The position numbers and the translations under genes were made by a program. A stretch of 64,000 nt of DNA, taken from Paracoccus laeviglucosivorans. Lineage in GTDB: Bacteria > Pseudomonadota > Alphaproteobacteria > Rhodobacterales > Rhodobacteraceae. The notes under the pieces were generated by a model. It did not search any database. It was given only the letters and a program-made list of their open reading frames with translations, and was not told the origin of the DNA. The stretch lies in assembly GCF_900182695.1 (NCBI RefSeq), contig NZ_FXTK01000009.1:1-64000 (forward strand), written 5' to 3'. This document shows positions 7,291 through 28,400 of this stretch, piece by piece. How positions within the stretch are numbered: the stretch's first letter is position 1; each line of letters starts with the position of its first letter.

Positions 7291-7295
7291 GGCCA

Positions 7296-7661
7296 TTACC
7301 TCGCGATCAGCACGAAAAGCAGCCAGCAGGCCAGCATGGCCAGCATGGCGATCAGGACGATGTTGCTTTCCAGAAACCACGCGGCCAGCGCGGTCAGCAG
7401 CCCACCGATCAGGATCAGCACGGTAAAGGTCGTGCGCAGCGGGCCGGACCGCAGCCGCCCGACCAACCAAGTGGCACCCAGCAGCGCGGCGCAGCCAAAC
7501 AGCGACAGCCCCGCCCCGCTGGTCCATGCCACGCCCGAGGCATTGCGGAAAAATTCCACCAGCGCTGCGACCATGCCGACGGCTGCCGGGATCGCCATGA
7601 TATTGGCGACCAGTTCCTCTTGCGCGCGGGGGGGAGGCGCGGCTGTAGCAGTTTTTACCAT
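7296..7661 (-). CDS. Membrane anchor subunit of PQQ dehydrogenase (SldB-like)
   Basis: This 121-aa integral membrane protein has about four hydrophobic helices (IMAIPAAVGMVAALVEFF, SLFGCAALLGATWLVG, TFTVLILIGGLLTALAAWF and IVLIAMLAMLACWLLFVL). It matches the size and topology of the N-terminal anchor domain of membrane glucose dehydrogenase and of SldB. It should anchor the catalytic subunit to the membrane and take part in ubiquinone reduction. Its stop codon overlaps a potential start of the downstream gene (TAATG at 7294-7298), so the two are translationally coupled. Assignment rests on topology and position. Confidence 0.75.
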   Translation of the reverse strand: MVKTATAAPPPRAQEELVANIMAIPAAVGMVAALVEFFRNASGVAWTSGAGLSLFGCAALLGATWLVGRLRSGPLRTTFTVLILIGGLLTALAAWFLESNIVLIAMLAMLACWLLFVLIAR

Positions 7662-13371: not shown

Positions 13372-13713
13372 TTAGAAGCACAGGATTTCGGCCTCGGCCT
13401 CGGCGCGGCGGTAATTGGCGACCATATCGTTGACCGCCGTGCCCTGCCGGAACATGGCCGTGCGTTCCCCCGCCGTCTGTCGCATCGACAGCACGGTTTC
13501 CGCCTTGACGTAATCGTCATAGGGCAGGACCGTCGCAATCTGGTCGATGGCGCAGGAACAGCGATCCAGCATGGTGCGCGTCTGCCCGTTCGTCGCCATA
13601 CAGACGAAGACGTAATCGGCGCGCGCATTGGTCGGATAGTCGTTGACCGCCTGCGCCCCGGCCGAACCTGCCCAGACCGCCATCGCGGCAACCACCGTCA
13701 GCTTGCGGATCAT
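13372..13713 (-). CDS. Small exported protein, cysteine-containing, unknown function
   Basis: This 113-aa protein has a signal peptide (MIRKLTVVAAMAVWAGSAGA, cleavage after GAQA). The mature part has a conserved-looking core, YVFVCMATNGQTRTMLDRCS followed by CAIDQI, with three cysteines and a charged C-terminus ending in a fourth (ILCF). It overlaps the next upstream gene by 4 bp (ATGA), so the pair is co-translated. The location downstream of the FIST/kinase/regulator operon in a PQQ region suggests a periplasmic accessory of quinoprotein metabolism, which is inference only. I do not recognise a named family. Confidence 0.65.
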   Translation of the reverse strand: MIRKLTVVAAMAVWAGSAGAQAVNDYPTNARADYVFVCMATNGQTRTMLDRCSCAIDQIATVLPYDDYVKAETVLSMRQTAGERTAMFRQGTAVNDMVANYRRAEAEAEILCF

Positions 13714-14324
13714 TTCAGCACCATCTGGTTTTCATAGGCCGGTTGATTGCCCGCCAGCGGACCCGTCTGCGCGACCATGCTGCGGATCGGCTGCTTGGGA
13801 TCGGCCAGCGTAAAGCGCAGCTCCAGCGTCTCGAATCCCAGCATCCGGGCGCGGTTCTCATCATCCTTGAAGGGGGCGAATACGGCGATCTGCGCCCCAC
13901 CCTCCTGCCTGACCTCGCCGCCGCGGAACAGCGCGTCTTTCAGGCGGTTGCGGATATAAAACGGGCTGCCCCCGGTCAGCGCGGCCATGTCGCGGGCCAC
14001 GGTCTCCAGAAAAAAGGTCAGCGTCGGATCGCCGCTGCTGCTGGGAAAAGGACCGATCTTGCGTTTGATCCGCTGTGTGTCCTCGGCCAGTTCCAGAACC
14101 GGCTTGCCGTCGGACGGATCGGTGGCGGCGCTCAGCGTGATCGTTCCCTGCCCCAAGGGCTTGTAACCCTCGACGGTGGGGCCGGTCTGTTCGATCGTCC
14201 AGACCAGCGGGCCGGCAAGCTGCCAGGGGCCGCGTTCGGCAAAGACCAGATCGCCCGCCTCATTGGCCGCGACCGGCGTGGCAAGCGCAAGCCCGATCAG
14301 GGCCATGTGGCGCAGAATTTTCAT
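13710..14324 (-). CDS. Exported protein of unknown function
   Basis: This 204-aa protein has a signal peptide (MKILRHMALIGLALATPVAA). The mature chain is a beta-rich sequence, with WQLAGPLVWTIEQTGPTVEG and LRFTLADPKQPIRSMVAQTG; the family is unknown to me. It reads like a lipid- or ligand-binding periplasmic protein, but this is a guess. The stop overlaps the start of the 113-aa exported protein (ATGA). It lies 81 bp after the hybrid kinase on the same strand, so the two exported proteins may belong to the kinase operon. Confidence 0.65.
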   Translation of the reverse strand: MKILRHMALIGLALATPVAANEAGDLVFAERGPWQLAGPLVWTIEQTGPTVEGYKPLGQGTITLSAATDPSDGKPVLELAEDTQRIKRKIGPFPSSSGDPTLTFFLETVARDMAALTGGSPFYIRNRLKDALFRGGEVRQEGGAQIAVFAPFKDDENRARMLGFETLELRFTLADPKQPIRSMVAQTGPLAGNQPAYENQMVLK

Positions 14325-14405: not shown

Positions 14406-15731
14406 TTAGGCCAGCATGTGATGCAGCATGGCCTGAAGATCCTCGGGGCGGATCGGCTTTTCCAGCACAGGCACGCCCAGTTCCAGGCTGGCGCGACCGA
14501 TTTCCGGGTCGCGCCGGGCCGAGACGATGATGGCAGGGACGGGCTGCCCCGCCGCGATGCGCAATTCGCGGATCGCCTTAAGTCCGGTGTCGCCATTGTC
14601 CAGATTGTAATCCGCGATCAGCACATCTGGCGGGTCGTCCCCCATCTGGGCCAAAGCCTCGGGGATGCCGCCCGTCACGCGGGCGACCATGCCCAGCCGG
14701 TCATGCAGGATCAGTTGATAGGCGCGGCGCATGGCATCGTCGTTTTCCACCACCAGCGCCACCCGCCCGCGCAGGGACGGGCCGCTGTGTTCGGCGACGC
14801 GGCGGCTGGCTTCGGCACGCGGGCCGATCAAGGGCAAGCTGACGCGAAACACCGTGCCCCGCCCCGGCTCGCTGTCCATGGCGATGGGATGGCCCAGTTT
14901 CGCACAGGCCCGGCGCACGATGGACAGACCCAGCCCCATGCCGGGCGCGCCCCCTTCGCGACCAATGCGCTGGAATTCGTCGAAGATACGCGAGCGGTCC
15001 GTCGCGGCAATGCCGATGCCGGTATCCATGATCTCCAGCCATGCTCGCCCGCCGCGTTTGCGCACGCCGATCAGCACGCCGCCCTGATCGGTATACTTGA
15101 TCGCGTTCGACACAAGGTTCTGGGCGATGCGGCGCAGGAATGTCGGATCGCTTTCCACCACGGCGCTGGTCGGCGCAAAGGCCAGCTTCAGCCCCTTGGC
15201 CTCGGCCATGGGGGCGTATTCGATGGCAAGGCGGCGGAACAGATCGCCCAGATCGACGGGCTTGCGCTGAAATTCGATCCGCTGGCTGTCCAGACGCGAA
15301 ATGTCCAGAACGGCGTGCATCAATTCCTCGACCGACTCGAAGGCACCTGCCAGACGGTCGGCAAGCTCGGTCTGCAATTCGTCCAGCGATGTGTCCTTGA
15401 AAGCCGACAGAAACAGCTTGGCGGCGGATAGCGGTTGCAGAAGATCATGGCTGGCCGCGCGCAGAAACCGGGTTTTGGAACGGTTCGCCTCTTCGGCAAG
15501 GGCGCGGGCCACGGCCAGTTCGCGATTGCGTTCCGACAGGTCGGCCAGCGCCTGTTCCAGTTCGCGGGTGCGGACCTGCACCTCCTGCTCCAGCGCGACG
15601 GCGGCCTGAAACATCGACCATGCCGAGCCGCGCGATTCCTCGAGCCGGTCGATTCGGTCCACCAGCACATTCGAGATCCGGGTCAGCTTTTCGACCCGCC
15701 GGGCTTCGTCATCTTCGTCGCGCAGGAACAT
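14406..15731 (-). CDS. Hybrid sensor histidine kinase (FlhS/NahK-like)
   Basis: This 441-aa cytoplasmic hybrid kinase has no membrane segment. A coiled-coil N-terminus (about residues 10-85) is followed by the phosphoacceptor motif RAASHDLLQPL (H95), N-box NLVSNAIKYT, G1 DTGIGIA and G2 GMGLGLSIVRR. A C-terminal receiver domain has its phosphoacceptor near D374 (DYNLDNGD) and K in EKPIRP. The HDLLQPL signature is typical of NahK, ErcS' and FlhS kinases. It is the third gene of an overlapping operon (TGATG with the FIST gene) behind a NarL-type regulator. The FIST protein is the obvious sensory input. In relatives such systems control PQQ alcohol or formaldehyde oxidation, or NO responses. Confidence 0.88.
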   Translation of the reverse strand: MFLRDEDDEARRVEKLTRISNVLVDRIDRLEESRGSAWSMFQAAVALEQEVQVRTRELEQALADLSERNRELAVARALAEEANRSKTRFLRAASHDLLQPLSAAKLFLSAFKDTSLDELQTELADRLAGAFESVEELMHAVLDISRLDSQRIEFQRKPVDLGDLFRRLAIEYAPMAEAKGLKLAFAPTSAVVESDPTFLRRIAQNLVSNAIKYTDQGGVLIGVRKRGGRAWLEIMDTGIGIAATDRSRIFDEFQRIGREGGAPGMGLGLSIVRRACAKLGHPIAMDSEPGRGTVFRVSLPLIGPRAEASRRVAEHSGPSLRGRVALVVENDDAMRRAYQLILHDRLGMVARVTGGIPEALAQMGDDPPDVLIADYNLDNGDTGLKAIRELRIAAGQPVPAIIVSARRDPEIGRASLELGVPVLEKPIRPEDLQAMLHHMLA

Positions 15732-16909
15732 CAGCTTGCCTCGGGGGGCATCAAGGCCATGCCCACAAAGGTCTGGTTCACATGCATCCCGCTGTATTGT
15801 TCGCCGAAGGTGTTAAACCCGGCGACGCGGTAGCGGGCCAGCAATTCCGACATCTGGCCGGTCATGCCCGCGCGTTCCAGCGCAAGGCGGCGCAGGATGC
15901 AGTCAAAGCCCAGCACCATCAGCGGCGGGCGCGGCAGCGCGTCCATCGCATCGGCAAAGCCGCGCGTCATATCGACGGCGCGGCCAAGGGTCAGGATATT
16001 GCCCGCTTCGATCCCTGACAGCAGTTGCAGTCCGCCATCGGTGGTCATGGCGCGGATCGCGCGGACATGGTGACGCCGGCCCGTGCGCAGCAGCAGCGGG
16101 TGGCGGGCGAATTCGGTCGTGGTCAGCGCCCCCAGCGGAATTCCGGTCAGCCGCGCATATTCCTGCGCGGCGGGTTCGGCGTTCAGTTCCCAGATGACGC
16201 GGTTCTGGGCATCCGCCGCCGTCACCACCGCGCGCTTGTCGGTGGGGCGGAAATGCGCGAACGACACCTCGGCCACGGCCAGATCGGTCTCGACCATCAG
16301 AAACAGCGCCGCGCCCACCTGCGCGCGGCCATCGACCATCTGGCAGGTCGGCAGGAACTCCATCCCTTCGGCGGCCGAGCCCCCGACGACCGGCAGACCG
16401 GGAATGGCCGCGTCGAGCGTGGCGACCAGCACGTCTTCCTGACGCGCCAGCGCATCTGCCAGCAGGATGCCAAAGCAGGAACGGCGCAGATCAGGGCGGA
16501 AATCGGCGTGGAAACGCCGCAGCGTGGACATCCAGTCCGATACCGGGATCTGCGCCTGATCGCGCAATGCGCAAATCCCCACGCGGAAACTGTCCGCAGG
16601 CAGACCCAGCGCGATCACGCTTTCATTGCAATAGCCCTGCGGCCCGATCTCACCCGCCGACGCACAGCCGACCACCCGGCAATCCGGCCCCAGCGCGCGA
16701 TGCAATTCGGCCCCGACCTGTGCCAGCCCCTTCAGCGGGCTGCCGAACAGCAAAACCAGCGCGGGACGCAAAGCCTGCATCTGCGACAGGACACGTTCGA
16801 CCAGATCGGGGGCCGCGGCCGGGACCGACATGTAAACCGGCGCGGCAACCCCAGAGGGCCGCCTGTGGCGGGCATCGCCCGGCCAGGGCGCGGGCTGGAC
16901 CTGCCTCAT
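15731..16909 (-). CDS. FIST domain sensory protein (NosP-like)
   Basis: This 392-aa protein has a FIST_N domain (about residues 45-240, with RVVGCASAGEIG and VVGGSAAEGMEF) and a FIST_C domain (about 245-385) ending GFNTFGEQYSGMHVNQTFVG, a hallmark of the family. FIST proteins are ligand sensors, and NosP-type members bind heme and sense nitric oxide while regulating a co-encoded hybrid kinase. Here the gene overlaps the upstream response regulator by ATGA and the downstream hybrid kinase by TGATG, so stoichiometric production is expected. The ligand (NO, small aldehyde or other) cannot be read from the sequence. Confidence 0.88.
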   Translation of the reverse strand: MRQVQPAPWPGDARHRRPSGVAAPVYMSVPAAAPDLVERVLSQMQALRPALVLLFGSPLKGLAQVGAELHRALGPDCRVVGCASAGEIGPQGYCNESVIALGLPADSFRVGICALRDQAQIPVSDWMSTLRRFHADFRPDLRRSCFGILLADALARQEDVLVATLDAAIPGLPVVGGSAAEGMEFLPTCQMVDGRAQVGAALFLMVETDLAVAEVSFAHFRPTDKRAVVTAADAQNRVIWELNAEPAAQEYARLTGIPLGALTTTEFARHPLLLRTGRRHHVRAIRAMTTDGGLQLLSGIEAGNILTLGRAVDMTRGFADAMDALPRPPLMVLGFDCILRRLALERAGMTGQMSELLARYRVAGFNTFGEQYSGMHVNQTFVGMALMPPEAS

Positions 16910-17616
16910 GCCGGTTCGAACAGCCTCACGCTATTGGCCAAAAGCACCGCCTGCGTCCGGCGACGTGCGTTGATCTTGGACATGATCGCGGTGATGTGGG
17001 TTTTCACCGTGGCCTCGGCGATGGACAGCTCATAGCTGATTTCCTTGTTCGCCTTGCCCTGACAAATCAGGCGCAGGATTTTCATCTGCTGGGGCGTCAG
17101 GCTGGAGAAACGGCGCGCCAGTTCGGCACGGGCCGCGTCTTCCTCGCCTGCATGTTCGGGCTGATAGCTGTCGGGTGTGACATGCTCGCCTTCCCACATG
17201 CGGCGCAGGCTTTCGACCAGCGCCTCGCGGCCCAGCGACTTGCTGATATAGCCCTGCGCCCCCGCCGCCATCGCAGCCGAGATCATGGCGTTTTCCAGAT
17301 CGGCCGAGATCATGGTGATCGGCACGTCCGGGATCTGGCGGCGCAGCGTGACCAGACCTTCGGACCCGCGCGCATCTGGCAGGTTCAGATCAAGGATCAC
17401 CGCATCGGGCGCCCCCTGCGACCGGATCTGGTCCTGTGCCGCCGCCAGACTGCGGGCGGTGCGGACATTTTTCAGCCCGAAGCTGATCTTCAGCGTCAGG
17501 GCCAATGCGTCGCACATCAGCGGGTGGTCATCGACGATCAGGATCTCGCGGACGCGATCTGCGGAAAGCCTTGGCGCGCTGGTGCGTTCGGACACTTGCA
17601 AGGTGGCTGAGGCCAT
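16906..17616 (-). CDS. NarL/FixJ-type response regulator (FlhR/ExaE-like)
   Basis: This 236-aa regulator has a receiver domain (LIVDDHPLM at 27-35, phosphoacceptor D76 in VILDLNLPD, later YISKSLG) and a LuxR-type HTH (SSLTPQQMKILRLICQGKAN followed by KEISYELSIAEATVKTH). It should be phosphorylated by the hybrid kinase encoded two genes downstream and act as a transcription factor. The start at 17616 (MASATLQV) has a strong GGAGGAG site; the open frame continues further upstream without support. It is transcribed divergently from the ABC importer at 17810. In methylotrophic and alcohol-oxidising relatives this family activates quinoprotein dehydrogenase and PQQ genes, consistent with the neighbours here. 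Confidence 0.88.
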   Translation of the reverse strand: MASATLQVSERTSAPRLSADRVREILIVDDHPLMCDALALTLKISFGLKNVRTARSLAAAQDQIRSQGAPDAVILDLNLPDARGSEGLVTLRRQIPDVPITMISADLENAMISAAMAAGAQGYISKSLGREALVESLRRMWEGEHVTPDSYQPEHAGEEDAARAELARRFSSLTPQQMKILRLICQGKANKEISYELSIAEATVKTHITAIMSKINARRRTQAVLLANSVRLFEPA

Positions 17617-17809: not shown

Positions 17810-18784
17810 ATGCTGCTGACCAGAAGAATCACCCTGCTTGGCGGGGCAGCAGTTCTGTCGGCACTTGCATGCCGCGCCAGCGCCCAGACCCCGCCCGCCA
17901 TCCGCGTCGGCACGCTTGAAAACGGCACGGTCAATTGGGAATTGCAAACGATCAAGGCACAGGGACTGGACCGCGCCAACGGATTTTCGCTGGTGCCGAT
18001 GATCCTTGCCGGCAACCCCGCCACACAGGTCGCCATGCAGGGCGGCGAGGTGGACACCATCGTCTCGGATTTCCTGTGGGTGGCGCAGCAGCGGGCGCGC
18101 GGTGCGGATTTCACTTTTCTGCCCTATTCGACATCCGTGGGCGGGCTGATGGTCCCGCCGGACAGCCCAGTGCAGACCCTGGCCGATCTGCGCGGCAAGA
18201 AAATAGGCATCGCGGGCGGGCCGGTCGATAAAAGCTGGCTTATCCTGCGGGCATGGTCGCGCGAAAAGCTGGGCTGGGATCTGGCCGACGAAACCCAGCA
18301 GGTCTTTGGCGCGCCGCCCATGATCCTGAACGCCGCGGAAACAGCCGAGGTCGATGCCGCCATCAACTTCTGGCACTTTCAGGCCCGGATGCAGGCGGCA
18401 GGAATGCGCGAGGTGATCTCGGTCGGGACGGCGGCACGCGATCTGGGGCTGGACCCCAGCACGCCGCTTCTGGGCTATGTCCTGCGCGATGCGTGGATCG
18501 CCGAAAATCCCGCGCTGGCCGCAGGGCTGGCCAAGGCATCCCGCGCCGCCAAGGAGGCGCTGCGCGGCGATGACGCATGGGATGCGATCCGCACATATGT
18601 GGATGCCAGGGACGATGCCGAATTCAAGGCGCTGCAAGCGGGCTTTCGCGCCGGCATCCCGCCCGAGGGTCCGGTGAATATCGAAAACGCGCAAAAGCTG
18701 TTCGCCACCATGGCCGAACTTGGCGGCGACGACCTGACCGGAGGCCTGACCACCCTGCCCGACGGTCTGTTCTGGCAGCCCTGA
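17810..18784 (+). CDS. ABC transporter substrate-binding protein (NMT1/SsuA-like)
   Basis: This 324-aa periplasmic binding protein has a signal with a twin-arginine look (LTRRITLLGGAAVLSALACRASAQ). The NMT1/SsuA-type fold shows as IRVGTLENGTVNWELQ, the GGEVDTIVSDFLWVAQQ loop and TLADLRGKKIGIAGG. Such proteins bind sulfonates, pyrimidine precursors or similar small organics. It is the first gene of a three-gene importer and overlaps the permease start by TGATG. It sits between the FlhSR-like operon and the pqq genes, and importers of this kind are often found beside quinoprotein loci. The substrate is unknown. Confidence 0.85.
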   Translation: MLLTRRITLLGGAAVLSALACRASAQTPPAIRVGTLENGTVNWELQTIKAQGLDRANGFSLVPMILAGNPATQVAMQGGEVDTIVSDFLWVAQQRARGADFTFLPYSTSVGGLMVPPDSPVQTLADLRGKKIGIAGGPVDKSWLILRAWSREKLGWDLADETQQVFGAPPMILNAAETAEVDAAINFWHFQARMQAAGMREVISVGTAARDLGLDPSTPLLGYVLRDAWIAENPALAAGLAKASRAAKEALRGDDAWDAIRTYVDARDDAEFKALQAGFRAGIPPEGPVNIENAQKLFATMAELGGDDLTGGLTTLPDGLFWQP

Positions 18785-19539
18785 TGCGGCGCATTCCATG
18801 GCCGGGTCTGCTGTCGGTGCTGGGGCTTTTGCTGCTTTGGACCGTTGCAAGCCAGCTGACCGACCGACCCCAGACCCTGCCCGCCCCGTGGGAGGTGGCG
18901 TCCCGCATCGCCCGCCTGTCCGCAAGCGGAGAATTGTGGTTCAACGCGGGCATGACGCTGATGCGCGTGGCGGCCAGCTTTGCCATCGCCATGGTGATCG
19001 GACTGGCTTTGGGGCTGGTCATGGGCCGGTCGCGCCGGGCCGACGACTGGCTGAATGCGGTGATCATCATCCTGCTGAACGTGCCTGCGCTGGTGCTGAT
19101 CGTGCTGTGCTACATCTGGATCGGCCTGAACGAGACGGCAGCCATCATCGCCGTCGCCCTGAACAAGATCCCCGTCGTCACGGTGATGATCCGCGAAGGC
19201 GCGCGCGCCATGCGCCCCGATCTGGACGACATGGCCCGGTCGTTCCGCATGTCGCCCGCAGCAAGGCTGCGCCATGTCGTGCTGCCCCAGCTTGCGCCCC
19301 AGATCGCGGCATCCGCCCGCGCGGGCATCTCGCTGATCTGGAAAATCGTGCTGGTGGTGGAATTTCTGGGCCGCTCCAACGGGGTGGGGTTCAAGATCCA
19401 CCTGCTGTTCTCAAGCTTCGACGTGACCGGCGTTCTGGCTTGGGCGCTGGCATTCGTCGCGGTGATGCTGCTGATCGACATCTGCCTGCTGCGCCCGTGG
19501 GAACGCCGCGCCAACCGCTGGAGGCAGGATGCAGCTTGA
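18784..19539 (+). CDS. ABC transporter permease (SsuC/TauC-like)
   Basis: This 251-aa membrane protein has about six helices and the binding-protein-dependent permease signature near SFRMSPAARLRHVVLPQLAPQ (the EAA loop that contacts the ATPase). The N-terminus is MRRIPWPGLLSVLGLLLLWT, and its start overlaps the binding-protein stop by one base. It forms the membrane channel of the importer with the flanking binding protein and ATPase, and belongs to the sulfonate/nitrate/taurine-type permease family. Confidence 0.9.
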   Translation: MRRIPWPGLLSVLGLLLLWTVASQLTDRPQTLPAPWEVASRIARLSASGELWFNAGMTLMRVAASFAIAMVIGLALGLVMGRSRRADDWLNAVIIILLNVPALVLIVLCYIWIGLNETAAIIAVALNKIPVVTVMIREGARAMRPDLDDMARSFRMSPAARLRHVVLPQLAPQIAASARAGISLIWKIVLVVEFLGRSNGVGFKIHLLFSSFDVTGVLAWALAFVAVMLLIDICLLRPWERRANRWRQDAA

Positions 19540-20125
19540 CCTGACCGCCAAGCATTTCGGCACGCGGCAGGTGCTGGGGGCGTTGTCGCTATCAGTCCGG
19601 CGCGGCGAACGTGTGGCGATCCTTGGCCCCTCGGGCATCGGGAAATCGACACTACTGCGCATTCTGGCCGGGCTGGATACCGGCTGGCAGGGTGGGCTGA
19701 CCGGGGACGAACGCCTTGCGCCGGTGTTTCAGGAACCCGTGCTGCTGCCATGGCGCGATGCTGTGGCCAATATCACCATCCCCACCGGCTGCGACGCGGC
19801 GACAGCCCGCGACTGGATGGCGCAGGTGGGTTTGGCGGGACATGAGGGGAAATACCCGCGCCAGCTTTCCCTGGGCCAGCAGCGCCGCCTGTCGCTGGCC
19901 CGCGCCTTCGCCGCCGCACCCGACATCCTGCTGATGGACGAACCCTTTGCATCGCTGGATGCCGAGACCGCGCAGCGTATGGTTGCACTGACGGACGATC
20001 TGCTGACGCGGACCGGGGCCGGGCTGGTTCTGGTCACGCATGACCCCGCCCAGGCCCAGCGCCTGCACACCCGGCCGCTTAACCTGTCCGGCGACCCGGC
20101 GGTGCTAGCTGCCGCCGGTGAATGA
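19529..20125 (+). CDS. ABC transporter ATP-binding protein
   Basis: This 198-aa ATPase has Walker A GPSGIGKST, a Q-loop (VFQEPVLLPW), the signature LSLGQQRR, Walker B ILLMDEP and an H-loop in VLVTHDPAQA. At 198 residues it is shorter than the usual 240-260 of this family, lacking much of the C-terminal region. It overlaps the permease by 11 bp. Its 3' end overlaps the convergent SoxYZ-like gene by 21 bp, so the two transcripts are antisense at their ends. Confidence 0.9.
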   Translation: MQLDLTAKHFGTRQVLGALSLSVRRGERVAILGPSGIGKSTLLRILAGLDTGWQGGLTGDERLAPVFQEPVLLPWRDAVANITIPTGCDAATARDWMAQVGLAGHEGKYPRQLSLGQQRRLSLARAFAAAPDILLMDEPFASLDAETAQRMVALTDDLLTRTGAGLVLVTHDPAQAQRLHTRPLNLSGDPAVLAAAGE

Positions 20126-20881
20126 CTTGTCCCAGACCCGCCCTTCGGTATCCTGCGCGTGGACCGTCACCGGACCATCGCCGGGGACATAGCCGAAACG
20201 AAACACCGGATCTTCGGAAATCGAGATGCCCGCATCCATGGTGAACAATTCGGCATCACCCTGCTTCACCTCAAGCGTCTGGATGAATTCGGCGGGAATG
20301 GTCAGCAGCGTCACCTGATCGCGTTGCAGCCCCGAGAAATTCGGATGCCGGATCATCAGCGTGCCGATGTCGCGACCATTTTCGGCGGCCTGCTTGAACC
20401 GCATTTCGCCCATCGTGGCGCGGACCTGTTCCATGCTTTTGCCCGCAGGCGCGGCACACCCGCCCGAGGCGCGGACAAACCGCCCCGCCATGATCTTGCG
20501 CCCGTCCTCTAGCGTGGCGATGGCGCGCACGTCGGAATAGCTGTCCACACGCACCCGCACCTCGAAATCCAGGGGCATCAGGGCGCGGCCAAAGGTGAAT
20601 TCCGCAGCCACGGGCGCAGGGTTGCCATCGACGACCAGCGACACCGCCGTTACGGCGGGGGCGCCGACCGGCTGGGTGATGTGGATGGGGACCAACGCCG
20701 GATTGTCGGCACGCTTGGGGGCATCAAGCAAAAGAACCGCCGGATCGACCGGCGGCTCGGTATCGGTTCCGATCACGCTTGACCGCATGTCGTCCCATAA
20801 TTCCGAAGGTTGCAGCGGGTTTTCGACAGGCTGCGCAAGGACAGGCGCGGCAAGCAACGCAAACACGAAAGCCAGTTTCAT
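20105..20881 (-). CDS. Quinoprotein dehydrogenase-associated SoxYZ-like carrier
   Basis: This 258-aa exported fusion protein has a signal peptide (MKLAFVFALLAAPVLA), a SoxY-like domain with the carrier-cysteine region GGCAAPAGK (C142), and a SoxZ-like domain (about residues 160-258; IRHPNFSGLQRD, AGISISEDPVFRFGYV). In Sox systems the SoxYZ cysteine carries the substrate. This fused family co-occurs with PQQ genes and its role is not settled. It is co-transcribed after pqqE (ATGA overlap), supporting a role in PQQ or quinoprotein maturation or electron relay. Its last 21 bp overlap the convergent ABC ATPase gene. Confidence 0.85.
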   Translation of the reverse strand: MKLAFVFALLAAPVLAQPVENPLQPSELWDDMRSSVIGTDTEPPVDPAVLLLDAPKRADNPALVPIHITQPVGAPAVTAVSLVVDGNPAPVAAEFTFGRALMPLDFEVRVRVDSYSDVRAIATLEDGRKIMAGRFVRASGGCAAPAGKSMEQVRATMGEMRFKQAAENGRDIGTLMIRHPNFSGLQRDQVTLLTIPAEFIQTLEVKQGDAELFTMDAGISISEDPVFRFGYVPGDGPVTVHAQDTEGRVWDKSFTGGS

Positions 20882-22008
20882 ATCCGTCTTTCCTTTGCCA
20901 TGCGCCGATAGACCAGCGCGATATCGTCGCTGGCCGCATCCGCCTCGGCTTCGGCGCGGAGCCGGGCGTTAAAGGAAGAACGCGAACAGACGGGATCCGT
21001 TGCGGTGGGATCGCCCGCCATCGCCATGGCCTGACAGCGGCAACCGCCGAAATCCACTTCGCGCCGGTCGCAGGTCGCGCAGGGTTCGGGCAGCCAGGCC
21101 GTGCCGCGGAATGCGTTGAAGGCGGGACCGTCGCGCCAGATGTCGGCCAAGGGCGCATCACGCAGGTTCTGGAACTGCAGCCCCTTGATCGTCTGCGCCG
21201 CGTGGCAGGGCAGCACCACCCCGTCCGGCGCGATGTTCAGGCCGGTGCTGGCCCAACCGCCCATGCAGGCCTTGGGGAATGCCGCGTGGTGATCGGCGGG
21301 CACATAGTCGATGACCATGACCCCGCGCAGGCGCTTGCGGGCGTCGTTCACCACCTCGCGCGCACGCTGCGCCTGTGCCAGCGTCGGCATCAGGGGACGG
21401 CGGTTCAGGTCGGCCCAGCCGTGGAACTGCACGGTCGCCACCTCGATCCGGCGGCAACCCAGACGTTCGGCCAGGTCGATCATCTCGGGCAGGCGGTCAA
21501 GGTTCTGGCGGTGCACCACGGCGTTCAGCGTCATCGGAAAACCGATCTGCCGGACCCATTCCGCGACCTGCATCTTGCGGGCGAAGCTGCCGCCATAGCC
21601 GCTGATCCAATCGGCCATTTCCGCGTCGATGCCTTGCAGCGACAGCTGCACGTGATCGACCACCCCGTCCAGTTCCTGCAACCGCGCCTGCGTCAGCCCG
21701 ATCCCCGAGGTGATCAGGTTCACATACAGCCCTGCATCATGCGCCGCCGTCGCGATTTCGGTCAGATCGCGGCGCGAGGCAGGCTCGCCCCCCGAAAGAT
21801 GCACCTGCAAGACGCCCATGTCGGCCGCCTGCCGGAAGGCATCGCCCCATTCGGCTGCGGTCAGTTCGGTCTGCACCCGCGCCAGCTCCACGGGGTTGGA
21901 GCAATAGGGACAGGCCAGCGGGCAGCGATGCGTCAGTTCCGCCAGCATCGCCATGGGCAGGCCGACGCGGACCGGGTTGCCCTGAATGTCGCGCGGCACG
22001 TCATTCAT
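20878..22008 (-). CDS. pqqE: PqqA peptide cyclase, radical SAM enzyme
   Basis: This 376-aa radical SAM protein has the cluster motif CPLACPYC (C29, C33, C36) and a C-terminal SPASM region (CHAAQTIKG, CATCDRREVDFGGCRCQA) that binds auxiliary Fe-S clusters. It makes the carbon-carbon crosslink between Glu and Tyr of PqqA, the first committed step of PQQ synthesis. The start MNDVPRDIQG overlaps pqqD by 8 bp and ends in an ATGA overlap with the SoxYZ-like gene. It is the fifth gene of the pqqABCDE operon. Confidence 0.96.
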   Translation of the reverse strand: MNDVPRDIQGNPVRVGLPMAMLAELTHRCPLACPYCSNPVELARVQTELTAAEWGDAFRQAADMGVLQVHLSGGEPASRRDLTEIATAAHDAGLYVNLITSGIGLTQARLQELDGVVDHVQLSLQGIDAEMADWISGYGGSFARKMQVAEWVRQIGFPMTLNAVVHRQNLDRLPEMIDLAERLGCRRIEVATVQFHGWADLNRRPLMPTLAQAQRAREVVNDARKRLRGVMVIDYVPADHHAAFPKACMGGWASTGLNIAPDGVVLPCHAAQTIKGLQFQNLRDAPLADIWRDGPAFNAFRGTAWLPEPCATCDRREVDFGGCRCQAMAMAGDPTATDPVCSRSSFNARLRAEAEADAASDDIALVYRRMAKERRI

Positions 22009-22306
22009 GTTCGGCCCCCGCACAAGCCAGATGCACCATGCGCCGATCGACAAGCCCGGTGATGAATTCGCGCACATCGCCTTCGATCTGTTCCACCGGC
22101 GCCTGATAACGCTGGCACAGGACAAGGATCACCTCGGCCAGACTGCGCTTGCCGTCCAGTTCGGTCAGGATCGCATCGCCCACCGCATCAAGCTGCATGG
22201 CGCGTTCCGGGGCCAGCAGCACGCGGATGCCCCGCACGCGATCATCATGCAACCGCACCCCGCGGGGCAGATAGGGGACGCAGGCATTGTTCAGGCGATG
22301 CGCCAT
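22001..22306 (-). CDS. pqqD: PQQ biosynthesis peptide chaperone
   Basis: This 101-aa RiPP-recognition protein presents the PqqA precursor to PqqE. It shows the family core LPRGVRLHDDRVRGIRVLL and a later LDAVGDAILTELDGKRSLAEV segment of the winged-helix fold. The chosen start MAHRLNN overlaps the pqqC stop by one base (TGATG). It is a separate gene here, not fused to pqqC or pqqE as in some species. Confidence 0.94.
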   Translation of the reverse strand: MAHRLNNACVPYLPRGVRLHDDRVRGIRVLLAPERAMQLDAVGDAILTELDGKRSLAEVILVLCQRYQAPVEQIEGDVREFITGLVDRRMVHLACAGAEHE

Positions 22307-23079
22307 CAGGCACCCACCATTTCCGGGCGAACCACCAGCCCTTCGCCGGGATGCCACGCACCGGGGGGGATATTACCCTGCACATAGCCATGCCACAGCG
22401 CGTCAAGCTGCGCCCAAAGCACATCGGTCTTGAAGGTCAGCGCCGCCGCTGCCGCGTCCTGTTTTTCCAGCGTGTCGGCATGGTCCAAGACATAATTCAG
22501 GCCAAATTCCACGTCCTTGCGCGCCTCGGTCAGGCGGTTGCGGAAATAGGACAGGCTGGTTTCATCCGCGAAATCGTAATGCTTCAACAAGCCCTCGATC
22601 CGTTCGGCATGGATCTTTGGCGCGAACATTTCCGTCAGTGACGCGGCCACGGCATCCAGCAGCGGCATGTCGCGGACAAAGCGGACATAGGCATCGACGG
22701 CAAAGCGCGTGGCGGGCAACACGCCCACGCCGCTGGCGACGTAATCGGGGTCAAGCCCCACCGCCTGCGCCAAGGCCAGCCAGCGCCGGATGCCGCCACC
22801 TTCATCGACGCCGCCATCATGATCCTCAATGCGACTGCGCCAGACGCGGCGCAGTTGCGGGTCGTCCAGCCGCGACATGAAGGCCGCGTCCTTCATCGGG
22901 ATGCGCGACTGGTATTGCCAGCGGTTGACGACCCATGCCCGCACCTCGTCGGGGGAACATTCGCCGCTGTGCAGCCGCTTATGAAAGGGGTGGCGGTCGT
23001 GGTAACGCTCGACCCCGATACGCTTCAGGCGATCGTGGAAATCGGCGCGGGACAGCGGCTTGTGATCGGCAAGCTTCAT
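22306..23079 (-). CDS. pqqC: Pyrroloquinoline-quinone synthase
   Basis: This 257-aa heme-oxygenase-like fold enzyme performs the final ring closure and eight-electron oxidation that gives PQQ. Recognisable blocks are YHDRHPFHKRLHSGE, NRWQYQSRIPMKDAAFMSR and the active-site RIEDHDG region. It overlaps pqqB by ATGA and pqqD by TGATG. The length is usual for the family. Confidence 0.96.
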   Translation of the reverse strand: MKLADHKPLSRADFHDRLKRIGVERYHDRHPFHKRLHSGECSPDEVRAWVVNRWQYQSRIPMKDAAFMSRLDDPQLRRVWRSRIEDHDGGVDEGGGIRRWLALAQAVGLDPDYVASGVGVLPATRFAVDAYVRFVRDMPLLDAVAASLTEMFAPKIHAERIEGLLKHYDFADETSLSYFRNRLTEARKDVEFGLNYVLDHADTLEKQDAAAAALTFKTDVLWAQLDALWHGYVQGNIPPGAWHPGEGLVVRPEMVGA

Positions 23080-23966
23080 GGCGTGATCTCCATTCCGTCA
23101 TGGCCGATCTGCCAGCCCGCCTGCGCGGCCAGGGCGCGTTCGGGGCTGCCGGGATCGACCAGCGGGTTCGAATTGTTCAGGTGGACATAGATGCGGCGGG
23201 CCAACGGCACATCGGCCAAGGCCGTCATGCTGCCACCCACACCGGATACCGGGACATGGCCCATGCGCCGCCCGGTTTTGACCCCCAGCCCCGACCGGAC
23301 CATCTCGTCATCCGTCCAAAGCGTGCCGTCAAACAACAGCGCATCCGCCCCCGAGATACGCTGCACCAGCCAATCGGGCACATGCGCGCAACCAGGGATA
23401 TAGAACACGCGGCGGCCATTGGCGGTCAGTTCCACCCCCACGGTCTGTTCACCGACAAGGCCGGTCTCGACCGTCTCGCCTTCCAGATACAGGGGAACTT
23501 TGCCGGGAACCGGGAACAGCCGCGCGGTCAGGCCGGATGCAAGCTGAAAGGCTGCGTCCATTGCGACCGGACGGCGGGCGACCTTTTCGGCGGACAGTGC
23601 CGACAGCATGGGATTGCCAGCCAGAACGTCATGGATGGCAGGCGTGGCGAACAGATCGAAGGGCTGGCCTTCGCGCAGGGTCAACAGCCCCGCCACATGG
23701 TCGATGTCGCCATTGGTCACAAGAACCGAACGGATGGGCGTTTCGCGCAACCCCGACGGCCACAGCAAGGGCGTCGCCGCCAGTTGCGCCCGCAGATCGG
23801 GCGAGGCGTTGATCAGCGCCCAATGCACACCATCCGCCGATACCGCGACCGAGCTTTGCGTCATGGACGGGATGCGCCCGTCGCGGGCCGCGTCGCAATG
23901 CGCGCAGCCACAGTTCCACTGCGGCAGCCCTCCGCCGGCGCCGGTGCCCAGAATTACGATACGCAT
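23076..23966 (-). CDS. pqqB: PQQ biosynthesis protein B, metallo-beta-lactamase fold
   Basis: This 296-aa protein has the PqqB N-terminus (MRIVILGTGAGGGLPQWNC with a GCAHC zinc-type motif), an SSVAVSADG block and NGDIDHVAGLL in the hydrolase-like core. PqqB hydroxylates the crosslinked tyrosine of the Glu-Tyr intermediate during PQQ formation. It lies 61 bp after pqqA and overlaps pqqC. Confidence 0.96.
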   Translation of the reverse strand: MRIVILGTGAGGGLPQWNCGCAHCDAARDGRIPSMTQSSVAVSADGVHWALINASPDLRAQLAATPLLWPSGLRETPIRSVLVTNGDIDHVAGLLTLREGQPFDLFATPAIHDVLAGNPMLSALSAEKVARRPVAMDAAFQLASGLTARLFPVPGKVPLYLEGETVETGLVGEQTVGVELTANGRRVFYIPGCAHVPDWLVQRISGADALLFDGTLWTDDEMVRSGLGVKTGRRMGHVPVSGVGGSMTALADVPLARRIYVHLNNSNPLVDPGSPERALAAQAGWQIGHDGMEITP

Positions 23967-24027
23967 GGTCTTAGCTTCCGGCGCGGCCGGCCCCGGTCAG
24001 TCGGGACCGGACGTTTCTAGACGTGGT

Positions 24028-24120
24028 TCAGAACAGCACCGGCTCGTCTTCGGCCGGGGCATACATGTTGATTTCCATGCCGCAGGAAATTTCCTTCAGC
24101 GCAGGTTTGGTCCATGCCAT
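24028..24120 (-). CDS. pqqA: PQQ precursor peptide
   Basis: This 30-aa ribosomally made precursor of the cofactor PQQ reads MAWTKPALKEISCGMEINMY followed by APAEDEPVLF. The E-x-x-x-Y pair that becomes PQQ is E16 and Y20 in EINMY. A very strong GGAGGAGGAG ribosome-binding site lies about 8 nt before the ATG, as expected for a highly made peptide. It is the first gene of the pqqABCDE operon. Confidence 0.97.
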   Translation of the reverse strand: MAWTKPALKEISCGMEINMYAPAEDEPVLF

Positions 24121-24167
24121 GAGTTCTCTCCTCCTCCTCAAGCAGCCGCGGGGGTGCGGATGGGTAG

Positions 24168-24195
24168 ATGCTATGCCCATGCCAAAACCAGTCAA
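24168..24195 (-). promoter_or_regulatory. Putative promoter of the pqq operon
   Basis: On the minus strand TTGACT (24195-24190) and TAGCAT (24173-24168) are separated by 16 bp, about 48 bp before the pqqA start. It lies in the divergent gap between pqqA and the metallo-hydrolase gene. Confidence 0.45.
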
Positions 24196-24285
24196 CCCGC
24201 CAAAGGTCTTAGAATCGTCACGCTATGGCGAGCGGGTCGGGCCCGTGCTAATGTCCGATCCCGCGTCGTTTACAAGGGTAACGGG

Positions 24286-25341
24286 ATGTTTCATCTGGTG
24301 CTTTCCGCCTGTCTGGTTGCCAGCCCCGAAACTTGCGCACAGCGGTTGCTGCCTGCGGGCGATGCCGCCGAGCGCCAGCAATGCGAACAGCGGGCCGGAC
24401 CCATCGCCCGCGACTGGCTGGCCCGCCATACCGAAATGAAGGGCGGCAAGATGGCCTGCGTCGAAACCGCCGACCTGCCCGCGCTAAGCGTTCGGGAAAT
24501 CGCCGATGACGTTTACACTCACCAAGGCACCATCGCGCAGATTTCGCCGCAAAATCAGGGCCGCATCGCCAATCTGTCCTTTGTGGTGGGCGATAGTGTC
24601 GCCGTCATCGACGCAGGCGGCAGCCGGGCCGAGGGCGAGGCGCTTTATGCCGCGATCCGCCGCGTGACCGACGCGCCGATCAGCCATGTGATCCTGACCC
24701 ATATGCATCCCGACCACATCCTTGGGTCCGAGGTGTTTTCCGAAGCGGGTGCCACCATCGTCGCCGATGCCCGTCTGCCCGAAGCGGTGGCGCAGCGGTC
24801 GCAGGCGTGGATGGTGTCGATCCCGCGCCAGATCGGGGCGGGGGCGTTCGCAGGCACGCATATCATCGGCGTCGATCAGAAGATTTCCGAGCCGACCACC
24901 ATCCCACTGGGTTCGACCGAACTGCGCCTGACGCCGCAGCCTTCGGCGCATACCGATAACGACCTGACGGTGTTCGACACCGAATCGGCCACGCTGTTCA
25001 CGGGCGATCTGCTGTTTCGCGGGCTGACGCCATCACTGGACGGCTCGCTTGCGGGTTGGCTGAACTGGCTTGCGACTCCGCCGCAGCCGGAGCCTGCGCT
25101 GATCGTGCCGGGCCATGGACCCGTTGCCGAAAGCTGGGACGAGGCATCGGCGCCCACCATCCAATATCTGACGCAATTGCGCGACATGACACGCAAAGCC
25201 GTCTCGGGTGGCATGGCGCTGTCGCAGGCGATTCCCGCCATCACCCAGATGATGAAGCCTTATTCCGAAGGATGGGCGGATTTCGCGGCTACCACTGCAA
25301 GGAACGCTGCAACCGCATATTCTCAACTGGAATGGGAATAG
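24286..25341 (+). CDS. Quinoprotein relay-type metallo-beta-lactamase-fold hydrolase (SoxH-like)
   Basis: This 351-aa protein has an N-terminal cysteine-containing segment (ACLVASPETCAQRL, perhaps exported) followed by a metallo-beta-lactamase domain with the zinc motif THMHPDH (H139, H141, D143, H144), a later SAHTDNDLTV and VPGHGPV. The arrangement fits the family of zinc hydrolases linked to quinoprotein and SoxYZ-like proteins. It is divergent from pqqA and may share its promoter region. Together with the SoxYZ-like carrier it suggests a periplasmic sulfur- or thioester-type relay around PQQ enzymes. This is an inference; no substrate is known. Confidence 0.82.
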   Translation: MFHLVLSACLVASPETCAQRLLPAGDAAERQQCEQRAGPIARDWLARHTEMKGGKMACVETADLPALSVREIADDVYTHQGTIAQISPQNQGRIANLSFVVGDSVAVIDAGGSRAEGEALYAAIRRVTDAPISHVILTHMHPDHILGSEVFSEAGATIVADARLPEAVAQRSQAWMVSIPRQIGAGAFAGTHIIGVDQKISEPTTIPLGSTELRLTPQPSAHTDNDLTVFDTESATLFTGDLLFRGLTPSLDGSLAGWLNWLATPPQPEPALIVPGHGPVAESWDEASAPTIQYLTQLRDMTRKAVSGGMALSQAIPAITQMMKPYSEGWADFAATTARNAATAYSQLEWE

Positions 25342-25403: not shown

Positions 25404-28400
25404 ATGCACGGACGCAACTGGCTTCGGATCATTCCCGCAACCTTGGCCCTTGGGCTGATGACCGCCCTGCCCGGCCACGCGCAAGAGGGACCGATCCCCG
25501 CCAAGCGCATCCAGTTGCAGGCCGATACCGACATGCCCGGCGGCGATATCGGCAAGATATTCGACACGACGCTGCAAGCCTGCATTCAGGCCTGCCTTGG
25601 CGACGAGCAATGCACCGCGCTGACCTATAACCAGAACGCCCGCGCCTGTTTCCCCAAGGGCGAAGGCGCAGGCGCGGCTGCCGGATTCGGCGGCGCGCTG
25701 TCGGGTCGTGTCATCGCGACCAGCGCCGAAGCCCGCTTGCGGGCCGATGCCCGCGCTTCCGCGGCCCCCTTTATTGCGGCGAACGATCTGACCGCTGCGC
25801 AGGCGCAGGCCCGTATGTTCCCCGCCATGAACCCCGCCCTTGGTGCGGGCGATTCCCATCAGGCGGCATACGATGCCGAGCAGGGCGGCGATCTTGCGGG
25901 TGCGGCCAGCATCATGGCGCAGATCGTGGCCCGCGACGATGCGGCGCGCGACTGGACGAACCTTGCCCGGCTGACGCTGTATACCAGCGATTCCGATAAT
26001 TCTGACGCGTCGAACGCCATCGCATCCATGGCCGTGAACGCCTATCTGCGCGCGGACGAAGACGCGGTGGCCGCACGCGCGCTGTCGTGGCTGGCCATGG
26101 CCTATGAACGGCTGAACCGTGGCCCCGACGCGCTGAAGGCATTGCGGCTTGCGGCGCAGCTGTCCCCCGGCGACGGCTCGATCGCGACCGCGCTTGAGGA
26201 ATCCGAGGCGCGCAATGGTCTGCGCGTCACCGACAATCAGGTCGAATCCGAAGGCAAGATGCCGCGTTTTTGCGCCGTCATGTCGCGCGAACTGGACAAG
26301 GGCACCGATTACGCGCCGTTCCTGCGCCTGCCAGCAGGCGATCTGACGGTCGAGGCAGATGGCAATCGTCTGTGCGTCGGCGGCCTGACCCACGGGCAGG
26401 AAGTGGCCCTGACCCTGCGCGCGGGCCTGCCGTCGGCGGATGGCGAAAAGCTGGCCCGCGACGTGGCACTGAAAGGCTATATCCGCGACCGCAGCCCCGA
26501 GGTGCGCTTTCCGGGCCGGGCCTATGTCCTGCCCGCCTCGGGCGATCAGCGGCTGTCGGTTGTGACGGTCAATGCCGATCAGCTGAACCTGCGGCTGCTG
26601 AAGATTTCGGACCGCAACCTGATCCGCGCCATGACCGAAGACATGTTCGCCAAGCCACTGGACAGCTGGCAGGCGGATTACTTCAGCGACCAGATGGCGC
26701 GCGAGGTCTGGAAAGGCACGGCGCAGGTCGCCAAGCCCATGGGTCAGGACGTGCTGAACCGCGAACTGACCACCAGCCTTGCCATCCCCGCCGAGGCGGG
26801 CCCGCTGGAGCCGGGCATCTATATCGTCGAAGCCGGAATCGTGAACGAGAACGTCTCGGATACCGGGCTGGCGGCGCAGTGGTTCGTCATCTCGGATTTC
26901 GGGATCTCGACCTTCTCGGGGACGGATGGGCTGACGGTTGCGGTGCGCAGCCTGAAAGACACCGCAGCCAAGGTCGGGGCCGAGGTGGCGTTGGTCAGCC
27001 GCTCGAACGAGGTGCTGGCCAGGGCGGTCACCGATGAACAGGGCGTGGTGCATTTCGCGCCGGGTCTGGCGCTTGGCAAGGACGGTGCGGCCCCCGCGCT
27101 GGTCACCGCGACCTATTGGCAAGGGCAGGAGGAGGAGGACATCCCCCGCGACATGGCATTCCTGTCGCTGACCGACCCGGAATTCGACCTGTCCGACCGC
27201 GGTGTCGAAGGCGCGCCGCCCGCGCCGCCCATCGACCTGTTCGTGACCACCGATCGCGGCGCTTACCGCGTGGGCGAGACGGTGAACGCCACCGTTCTTG
27301 CCCGCAACCCCGAGGCGCGGGCCTTGGAAAATCTGCCGCTGACCGCCGTGATCCTGCGCCCCGATGGGGTCGAGGCGACGCGCATCACCCCCGCCGATGC
27401 CGGCGCAGGCGGCGCGACCGTCAACTGGCAGATCCCCGGCAATGCCCCGCGCGGCACGTGGCGGCTGGAACTTCGCGCCGAAGCCGACGGCCCCGCGCTG
27501 GCCACCCAGCGCCTGCTGGTCGAAGATTTTCTGCCCGAACGTATCGACTTTACCCCCACCCTGCCCGAAGGCGCGGCGAAAGCCGGGGCCGAACTGGACC
27601 TGTCGCTGACGGCCCGCTGGCTTTTCGGCGCACCCGCCGCCAACCTGCCGGTCGAGGGGCAGCTGCGCCTGTCGCCCGTCCGCACGCTGGCCGGTTTCGA
27701 CGGTTTCAGCTTTGGGCGTGAAGATGACGACACATCGCCCGTGACGAACAGCCTGCCCAGCGGCACGACCGATGCGCAGGGGGCCTACACCACGCAGATC
27801 ACGCTGCCGGGCGATCTGGGCCCGCGCCCCTATGATGCGCAGGTCATCATGGACATCCGCGAAGGCGCTGGCCGCCCGGTCGAGCGAGTGCAATCCCGCA
27901 CCGTCATGCCCGATGCCGCCGTCATCGGCATCAAGCCCCTGTTTGAAGGCGGCACGGTGTCCGAAGGCTCCGATGCGCGGTTTGCGCTGATCGCCGTGGG
28001 GTCGGACCTGAAACCCACAGCCCAGCCGGTGCGCTGGGTGCTGAACCGGATCGATACGGATTACCAGTGGTATTCCATCGGCGGACAATGGAATTGGGAA
28101 GCGATCACATCGCGCACGCGCGTCACCGAAGGCGTGGCCGAACCGGGCGAAAGCCCTGCCGAAATCGCCGCCCCGGTCGAATGGGGGCAGTATGAACTGG
28201 TGGCCGAGCCGACCTCGGGTCAGGGGGCGCAGTCCTCGGTGCAGTTCTATGCCGGCTGGGGCGCGGTGGCCGACAGCGGCACGCCCACGCCCGACCGCTT
28301 GCAGGTGGTGCTGGACAAGCCCGCCTATCGCAGCGGCGATACCGCGCAGGTCAAGGTGCAGGCAGCCAGCGACGGTCTGGGCATCGTCTCGGTCCTGTCG

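Follow-up and report, generated by a model that had tools for sequence, protein, structure and literature searches.

Lanthanide-type pyrroloquinoline quinone (PQQ) dehydrogenases are common in the genomes that we sampled, and the question raised by the locus described here is why a Sox-like carrier protein, a rhodanese, and a zinc hydrolase should accompany them. The locus lies in a 64,000-nucleotide stretch of Paracoccus laeviglucosivorans (assembly GCF_900182695.1, contig NZ_FXTK01000009.1, positions 1 to 64,000 of the forward strand; hereafter, the window), in which the PQQ synthesis genes pqqABCDE are followed on the minus strand by a gene for a fused SoxYZ-like carrier, and a SoxH-like zinc metallohydrolase diverges from pqqA (Table 1). 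An initial annotation of the window noted this set, stated that it repeatedly accompanies quinoproteins without a defined reaction, and proposed that it carries a covalent intermediate of C1 or alcohol oxidation on Cys142 of the carrier. The association is borne out below; the proposed intermediate is weakened by the distribution of the set and by published mutant screens, and the set is apparently a helper or cleaning system rather than a part of the main reaction.

Distribution of the module

We surveyed, at curated cut-offs, 299 genomes of Pseudomonadota that were at least 90% complete. A true fusion (above the TIGR04557 cut-off, with no internal stop) was present in 39 of them, and a TIGR04558 or TIGR04559 hydrolase exceeded its cut-off in the identical 39. 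The CXXCW rhodanese (TIGR03865) was above its cut-off in 35 of these 39 module genomes and in 0 of the 260 others. Among the matches listed, a methanol/ethanol-type PQQ dehydrogenase was found in 84 of the 299 genomes, including all 39 with the module, which confirms that the set accompanies quinoproteins. Fisher tests, uncorrected for relatedness, gave 7.7e-50, 1.5e-41, and 1.0e-25 for hydrolase, rhodanese, and dehydrogenase, respectively. That the 39 genomes are identical applies only to the curated cut-offs; weaker matches reach beyond this group, with TIGR04559 in 76 genomes (E 1e-30), TIGR04558 in 31 (1e-50), and TIGR03865 in seven further (1e-10). Fifty genomes exceeded the TIGR04557 cut-off, of which 11 were dropped because the match crosses a stop codon and thus represents a separate soxY-soxZ pair. 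At the limits used, the 14 control genomes had no match to TIGR04557, TIGR03075, TIGR03865, or TIGR04558, and one of them, Sulfolobus acidocaldarius, had a single TIGR04559 match under the cut-off.

Carrier and hydrolase subtypes also go together. When fusions were typed by the motif after Cys142 and hydrolases by hidden Markov models (HMMs) built from four hydrolases each, pairing was uncrossed (27 A-T2 and 14 B-T1, with three fusions having no hydrolase in the stretch examined, and some paralogous fusions sharing a hydrolase), and it stayed uncrossed in the two genomes that hold both subtype kinds (G137 and G221). The identical distribution, the uncrossed pairing, and a single invariant cysteine thus leave one protein and one residue to look at.

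The set itself is already known. The NCBIfam families TIGR04557 and TIGR04559 carry the quinoprotein association in their names, and a 2026 review discusses the association and leaves the reaction without definition (PMC12997753, section 15), as the initial annotation had said. Pseudomonas putida KT2440 has the same kinds of carrier and hydrolase with the same link to a PQQ alcohol dehydrogenase (the TIGR04557/TIGR04559/TIGR03865 set; PP_2677, PP_2678, and PP_2666), and the carrier, hydrolase, and rhodanese of the window genome all exceed the curated cut-offs. In contrast to the P. putida set, the carrier of the window is coupled to pqqE, its hydrolase is of type 2 with a four-cysteine (4-Cys) domain and shows no signal peptide, and the rhodanese of the window genome lies on another contig beside XoxF. 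Neither this rhodanese nor the 4-Cys domain figures in the initial annotation. As far as we searched the literature, the new findings are that carrier and hydrolase are distributed identically, that their subtypes pair, that a 4-Cys variant of the hydrolase shows no export signal, and that a neighbor described below is specific to XoxF.

The operon structure given in the initial annotation was upheld: pqqE ends in an ATGA that also holds the start codon of the carrier, read from the same strand, and the divergent starts of pqqA and the hydrolase (ATG at 24286) are 165 bp apart. We compared the loci of the 80 nearest named relatives, the best of which was P. shanxieyensis (90% identity of the carrier). 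Nineteen of the 80 were Paracoccus, and in 15 of these pqqE preceded the fusion on the same strand with the hydrolase on the opposite strand. Eight of the 15 had a gap of −4 to 3 bp between pqqE and the fusion, in 6 the fusion open reading frame (ORF) extended back into pqqE through an early start codon, and one Paracoccus locus (L095) had a 259 bp gap and two pqqE ORFs. This recurrence argues that the arrangement is not due to chance. Outside the Paracoccus layout, the carrier mostly stands with the hydrolase and apart from the pqq genes (hydrolase in 78 of 80 loci, pqqE in 21).

Carrier and hydrolase

The window carrier scored 246 bits against TIGR04557 (cut-off 140). A single uninterrupted frame encodes both Pfam domains, SoxY (residues 44-142) and SoxZ (residues 174-254), each of which exceeded its gathering threshold. 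The GGC cysteine lies between the two: Cys142 (..ASGGC-AAP..) closes the SoxY domain, and the protein has no other cysteine. All 44 fusions examined, which came from 41 loci, kept this residue, its column was invariant across 65 aligned rows, and the motif G[GA]C..P was present in 80 of 82 carrier ORFs of named relatives, the two exceptions being a GGCSAA that retains the cysteine and a fragment of a broken ORF. The earlier choice of Cys142 as the carrier cysteine is thus well founded. A signal-like start was found on 75 of 81 carrier ORFs by a crude predictor. The structural model, mainly beta strand, had a mean predicted local distance difference test score (pLDDT) of 91.4, and the block containing Cys142 (141-150) had a mean of 72, which would be consistent with a mobile loop. 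The top solved matches of the model were SoxY and SoxZ chains, interspersed with chains of immunoglobulin fold that had a lower template modeling score (TM-score).

Like the SoxYZ of thiosulfate oxidation (Paracoccus pantotrophus, 2ox5 and 2oxg), the carrier combines the SoxY and SoxZ folds with a GGC cysteine in a flexible segment, but it differs in being a single fused chain with an internal cysteine and in scoring below the cut-offs for true SoxY (TIGR04488, 57.9 versus 125 bits) and true SoxZ (TIGR04490, 51.3 versus 76 bits). True SoxY carries its cysteine in a C-terminal GGCGG, a motif that also appears in the name of TIGR04488; no such C-terminal arm is present in the window carrier, where the cysteine is residue 142 of 258 in a GGCAAP context. 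Two genomes of the window's family have a divergent second fusion paralogue beside a rhodanese (L042:14128-15039, minus strand; L043:4974-5780, plus strand), in which GAC replaces GGC and the cysteine is retained.

The hydrolase of the window scored 338.7 bits against TIGR04559 (SoxH-related hydrolase 2, cut-off 280) and fell below the cut-off of TIGR04558 (SoxH-related hydrolase 1, 162 versus 300 bits). All seven ligands of the binuclear site (HxHxDH, H, D, H; here H139, H141, D143, H144, H222, D241, and H277) were invariant in 57 of 57 hydrolases, so that the metal site is intact. Its model (pLDDT 97.8) matched a metallo-beta-lactamase superfamily protein of Burkholderia cenocepacia (8d2z; Z 33.0, root-mean-square deviation [rmsd] 2.2, 274 residues) and chlorothalonil dehalogenase (6uxu; Z 31.6, rmsd 2.7, 275 residues), with beta-lactamases ranking next and with alkylsulfatase PisA1 (Z 23.5, rmsd 3.8, 283 residues) and PqsE (Z 23.2, rmsd 3.3, 263 residues) further down. 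PqsE we take to be a thioesterase. The description of the enzyme as "thioester-type" in the initial annotation therefore stands only in part: PqsE is among the fold neighbors, but so are beta-lactamases, alkylsulfatases, and a dehalogenase. Persulfide dioxygenases and glyoxalase II were not among the matches listed in the fold search, and the alignment with hydroxyacylglutathione hydrolase was weak (28 bits, cut-off 201). The enzyme shares its catalytic part, including the C-terminal helices, with 8d2z and 6uxu at 25% and 20% identity, respectively, and since this shared fold does not fix the substrate, the model is compatible with a thioester, a sulfate-type, or another substrate alike. Both alignments begin at residue 64-67 and thus exclude the N-terminal 4-Cys domain.

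In the model, residues 1-60 form a strand-strand-helix-strand unit with four cysteines that is folded from residue 2, and this domain had no match in Pfam, NCBIfam, or PHROGs. An HMM detected it in 74 of 117 hydrolases. Of these, 70 came from the named loci, a set picked because it is close to the window, and the 41-locus sample contributed only 4 (G000, G160, G245, and G271, all of the window's family). The domain lay 69-89 residues ahead of the first metal motif in 73 of the 74 and started at the first possible start codon in 30. Among the other hydrolases with a recognizable metal motif, 32 of 38 had a signal-peptide-like start by a crude test. A signal peptide hidden upstream of the 4-Cys hydrolases seems unlikely: 7 of 74 were flagged, six of them for the first strand of the domain itself, and the remaining one (L145) had a separate hydrophobic stretch further upstream. 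Judging from these sequences, the 4-Cys domain of the Rhodobacterales hydrolase occupies the place of the signal peptide of its relatives, and the hydrolase of this clade may stay in the cytoplasm although its carrier is exported, or it may leave the cell interior by another route. The domain also occurs alone, in 18 ORFs (9 in loci with an adjacent fused hydrolase and 9 in loci without one), a 19th match having been dropped as a fragment of a broken hydrolase in L170. Because TIGR04559 is typed as a domain model, its curators may have been aware of varied architectures. The joining of the 4-Cys domain to the hydrolase provides a second handle on the module.

Relation to alcohol oxidation

The intermediate of alcohol oxidation that was first proposed is not supported by the distribution: of the 84 genomes for which a methanol/ethanol-type PQQ dehydrogenase was among the matches listed, 45 are without the module. 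The dehydrogenase alignment comprised 148 sequences from 83 of the 84 genomes (G178 had no sequence, and one gene of G174 was counted twice, once as a partial copy), with at most four candidates scored per genome and not every listed match retrieved. Within this sample, and among the matches listed, 38 of the 39 module genomes had a lanthanide-type enzyme, compared to 24 of the 44 without the module (Fisher 5.7e-6, uncorrected for relatedness). The lanthanide-type enzyme is not an absolute requirement, as the enzymes retrieved from one module genome (G054) were two of the non-Asp type only and the Asp type was found in those 24 genomes without the module. Nor does the vicinal disulfide discriminate, the cysteine pair being present in at least one dehydrogenase of each of the 83 genomes, 39 with and 44 without the module.

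Published mutant screens point the same way. A transposon screen for XoxF1 function in Methylorubrum extorquens AM1 lists among the genes hit at least four times orf6, orf7, xoxF1GJ, pqq, and lut (PMC7391723, Table 1; source consulted in part). The AM1 homologues of the set, META1p1703-1705 (PMC12997753, section 15), are absent from that table. In P. putida, the set showed minimal effects in random bar code transposon-site sequencing (RB-TnSeq), in which rare earths were not present (PMC12997753). The absence of the module from more than half of the dehydrogenase genomes, together with these screens, makes an obligate covalent intermediate less likely and favors an accessory role.

Proposed role and alternatives

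We tentatively favor, as plausible but short of probable, a reading in which carrier and hydrolase form the core of an accessory module that works as a thiol carrier and is linked to PQQ alcohol dehydrogenases, chiefly those of the lanthanide type, with a sulfur cargo, a hand-over between its proteins, and a role in upkeep. Cys142, on the loop between the SoxY and SoxZ domains, would pick up a small thiol-reactive group, the likeliest cargo being sulfur (a persulfide or S-sulfonate) passed on by the CXXCW rhodanese. The zinc hydrolase would then cut a carrier-bound or carrier-derived product and restore the thiol, in the way that SoxB acts on SoxYZ. The module would serve to keep reactive sulfur off PQQ or the dehydrogenase rather than to carry out a step of alcohol oxidation. 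A sulfur-handling upkeep relay is the most economical reading of a fused, one-cysteine SoxYZ found with a rhodanese and a hydrolase, and the dispensability seen in the mutant screens fits upkeep. The module, which probably handles sulfur, would play its accessory role under conditions other than those screened so far, and its dispensability points to sulfur stress in the presence of lanthanide rather than to plain alcohol growth. PQQ-sulfur adducts have been suggested (PMC12997753). In Hyphomicrobium denitrificans, a YeeE-like importer pair adjoins the genes of the set (PMC11582611, in the part consulted), and sulfur-responsive repressors influence a second group of pqq genes (PMC12423496, likewise in part). 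A recurrent importer of the YeeE type beside the module was also sought; none was recognized among the gene clusters present in at least 3 of 41 loci, with no YeeE model run.

Several observations weigh against this reading. The sulfur cargo, although the most likely one, is suggested only indirectly. Four of the module genomes have no rhodanese at the cut-off. Li et al. assign the Hyphomicrobium genes to alcohol catabolism and, in the part of their report consulted, describe importer genes unresponsive to thiosulfate (PMC11582611). The Rhodobacterales hydrolase, unlike the carrier, seems to remain unexported, so that a direct hand-over between them is not evident. In addition, 18 of the 39 module genomes have a single SoxYZ match only. 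Since no second SoxYZ match was found in the window genome either, the module is independent of thiosulfate oxidation, and we rejected a dependence on the thiosulfate-oxidizing Sox system. A bolder form of the proposal, which we regard as doubtful, is that the module is a minimal Sox relative dedicated to quinoproteins, in which the rhodanese would load a one-cysteine SoxYZ and an enzyme of metallo-beta-lactamase fold would replace SoxB, thereby protecting or repairing the PQQ of lanthanide-dependent alcohol dehydrogenases; in Rhodobacterales, part of this work would be done in the cytoplasm by the 4-Cys-fused hydrolase.

Three other explanations deserve consideration. In line with the initial annotation, Cys142 might instead trap the aldehyde produced by the dehydrogenase as a thiohemiacetal that is oxidized to a thioester, from which the hydrolase would free the acid. 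The weak hydroxyacylglutathione hydrolase alignment and the structural match to PqsE can be cited in its favor, as can S-formylglutathione-hydrolase-type genes within ∼6 kb in 30 of the 80 loci. Such an aldehyde relay is nevertheless quite unlikely, as it would be missing from the 45 module-less dehydrogenase genomes, it leaves the rhodanese without a role, the hydrolase of this clade shows no signal peptide, and the genes hit at least four times in the AM1 screen, which was based on lost formaldehyde production, include no member of the set (in the part of the source consulted). A role in maturation, put forward in PMC12997753, would have the three proteins assist in making or mending two parts of the dehydrogenase, its vicinal disulfide or its PQQ-metal site. 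The enrichment of lanthanide-type enzymes in module genomes agrees with it, but the set is evidently unnecessary for having the cysteine pair, which all 44 module-less genomes also possess, and it is hard to see what a zinc hydrolase would contribute to making a disulfide; we consider this role unlikely.

The set could also be the output of an ErdR-kinase-NosP regulon, handling thiol modifications derived from nitric oxide or redox stress rather than a dehydrogenase product. Cluster HMMs matched a kinase in 57, ErdR in 55, and NosP in 50 of the 80 loci within 6 kb, although the kinase and regulator HMMs may catch unrelated members. The same regulators stand beside dehydrogenases that lack the set (L074, L080, and L082) and thus follow the dehydrogenase rather than the module, which makes this explanation highly unlikely.

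XoxF and its neighbors

The only methanol/ethanol-type PQQ dehydrogenase of the window genome, among the matches listed, is XoxF-like and lies on another contig (G000:C23:21016-22635). A W-D-x-D motif marks lanthanide-type PQQ dehydrogenases, and this enzyme has the corresponding Asp (WDFDG) together with the vicinal cysteine pair. Its neighbors are a cytochrome, a XoxJ-type protein, the CXXCW rhodanese that is thereby separated from the carrier, an S-formylglutathione hydrolase, a class III formaldehyde dehydrogenase, and a glutathione-dependent formaldehyde-activating enzyme.

A small 4-Cys protein of no named family that is encoded in the window at 13372-13713, here called Orf6-like, was found in 31 of the 299 genomes. 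The XoxF clade (support 0.998) comprised 30 genomes, all of them within these 31, and in the 31st (G221) the ends of contigs carry XoxF fragments (86-87% identity), of which one shares its contig with the Orf6-like gene. Because five of the Orf6-like/XoxF genomes have no carrier-hydrolase module, the Orf6-like protein follows XoxF itself. The Orf7-like protein (13710-14324) was present in 16 of the 80 dehydrogenase genomes searched (four of the 84 were left out), all within the same 31. The Orf6-like and Orf7-like genes of Methylobacterium tarhaniae (L162) adjoin pqqE in the published order of orf6 and orf7 of AM1; from this match in gene order we infer that the window pair corresponds to AM1 Orf6 and Orf7 (META1p1746 and META1p1747), an assignment based on synteny. 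The AM1 proteins are required for normal growth on methanol with lanthanum, where the growth rate was 0.03 per hour for an orf6 deletion and 0.08, after a lag, for an orf7 deletion, compared to 0.16 for the wild type (PMC7391723, in the part consulted). The match between the Orf6-like protein and XoxF thus points to a so far unnamed XoxF partner with a growth phenotype published in that source. In one module-less locus (L090, genome G206), the Orf6-like and Orf7-like genes flank XoxF, the cytochrome, and XoxJ.

Other features of the window

The features of the locus are collected in Table 1. Beyond the pqq genes and the hydrolase, the carrier is neighbored by an SsuA/TauA-type importer, an ErdR-like regulator, a NosP-like protein, a kinase, and two proteins without a family. 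The importer was rejected as a part of the module, being found also beside module-less dehydrogenases (L074, L075, L084, and L085).

Table 1. Positions of the module, the pqq genes, and neighboring features in the window
Feature	Coordinates	Strand	Remarks
SoxYZ-like fused carrier (TIGR04557), 258 aa	20105..20881	-	Sec-type signal peptide; Cys142 in GGC-AAP between SoxY and SoxZ domains
pqqE	20878..22008	-	TIGR02109, 516 bits
pqqD	22001..22306	-	TIGR03859, 79 bits
pqqC	22306..23079	-	Position and HMM built from relatives
pqqB	23076..23966	-	Position and HMM built from relatives
pqqA precursor peptide	24028..24120	-	E-x3-Y motif present
SoxH-like zinc metallohydrolase (TIGR04559)	24286..25341	+	Residues 1-60 4-Cys domain, then metallo-beta-lactamase fold and C-terminal helices
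N-terminal 4-Cys domain of hydrolase (C9, C17, C33, C58)	24286..24462	+	Also a stand-alone protein in related loci
Orf6-like 4-Cys protein, 113 aa	13372..13713	-	Signal-peptide-like start; present in every XoxF genome sampled
Orf7-like protein	13710..14324	-	Signal-peptide-like start; no family match
Hybrid histidine kinase	14406..15731	-	NosP-kinase-ErdR group recurring beside carrier
NosP-like FIST protein	15731..16831	-	289 bits, under cut-off of 450
ErdR-like response regulator	16906..17616	-	171 bits, under cut-off of 390
SsuA/TauA-type importer	17810-20125		Score far under nearest family cut-off

Directly 3′ of the hydrolase, the window encodes a large bacterial alpha-2-macroglobulin with a PAN domain and the thioester motif CTEQ (25404-30908, plus strand), relatives of which are found on the same side in six Paracoccus loci (L091-L095 and L170). 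A second quinoprotein, a glucose/quinate-type PQQ dehydrogenase, lies on the minus strand (5413-7527, upstream to ∼7660; 566 bits, cut-off 833). It seemingly starts with its own signal peptide, and a membrane-anchor-like frame ends at its start, so that the usual single chain seems to be split over two genes. Finally, an ExaC acetaldehyde dehydrogenase (32112-33635, plus strand; 934 bits, cut-off 900) downstream of a GAF/Fis-type regulator suggests that ethanol is used in addition to methanol.

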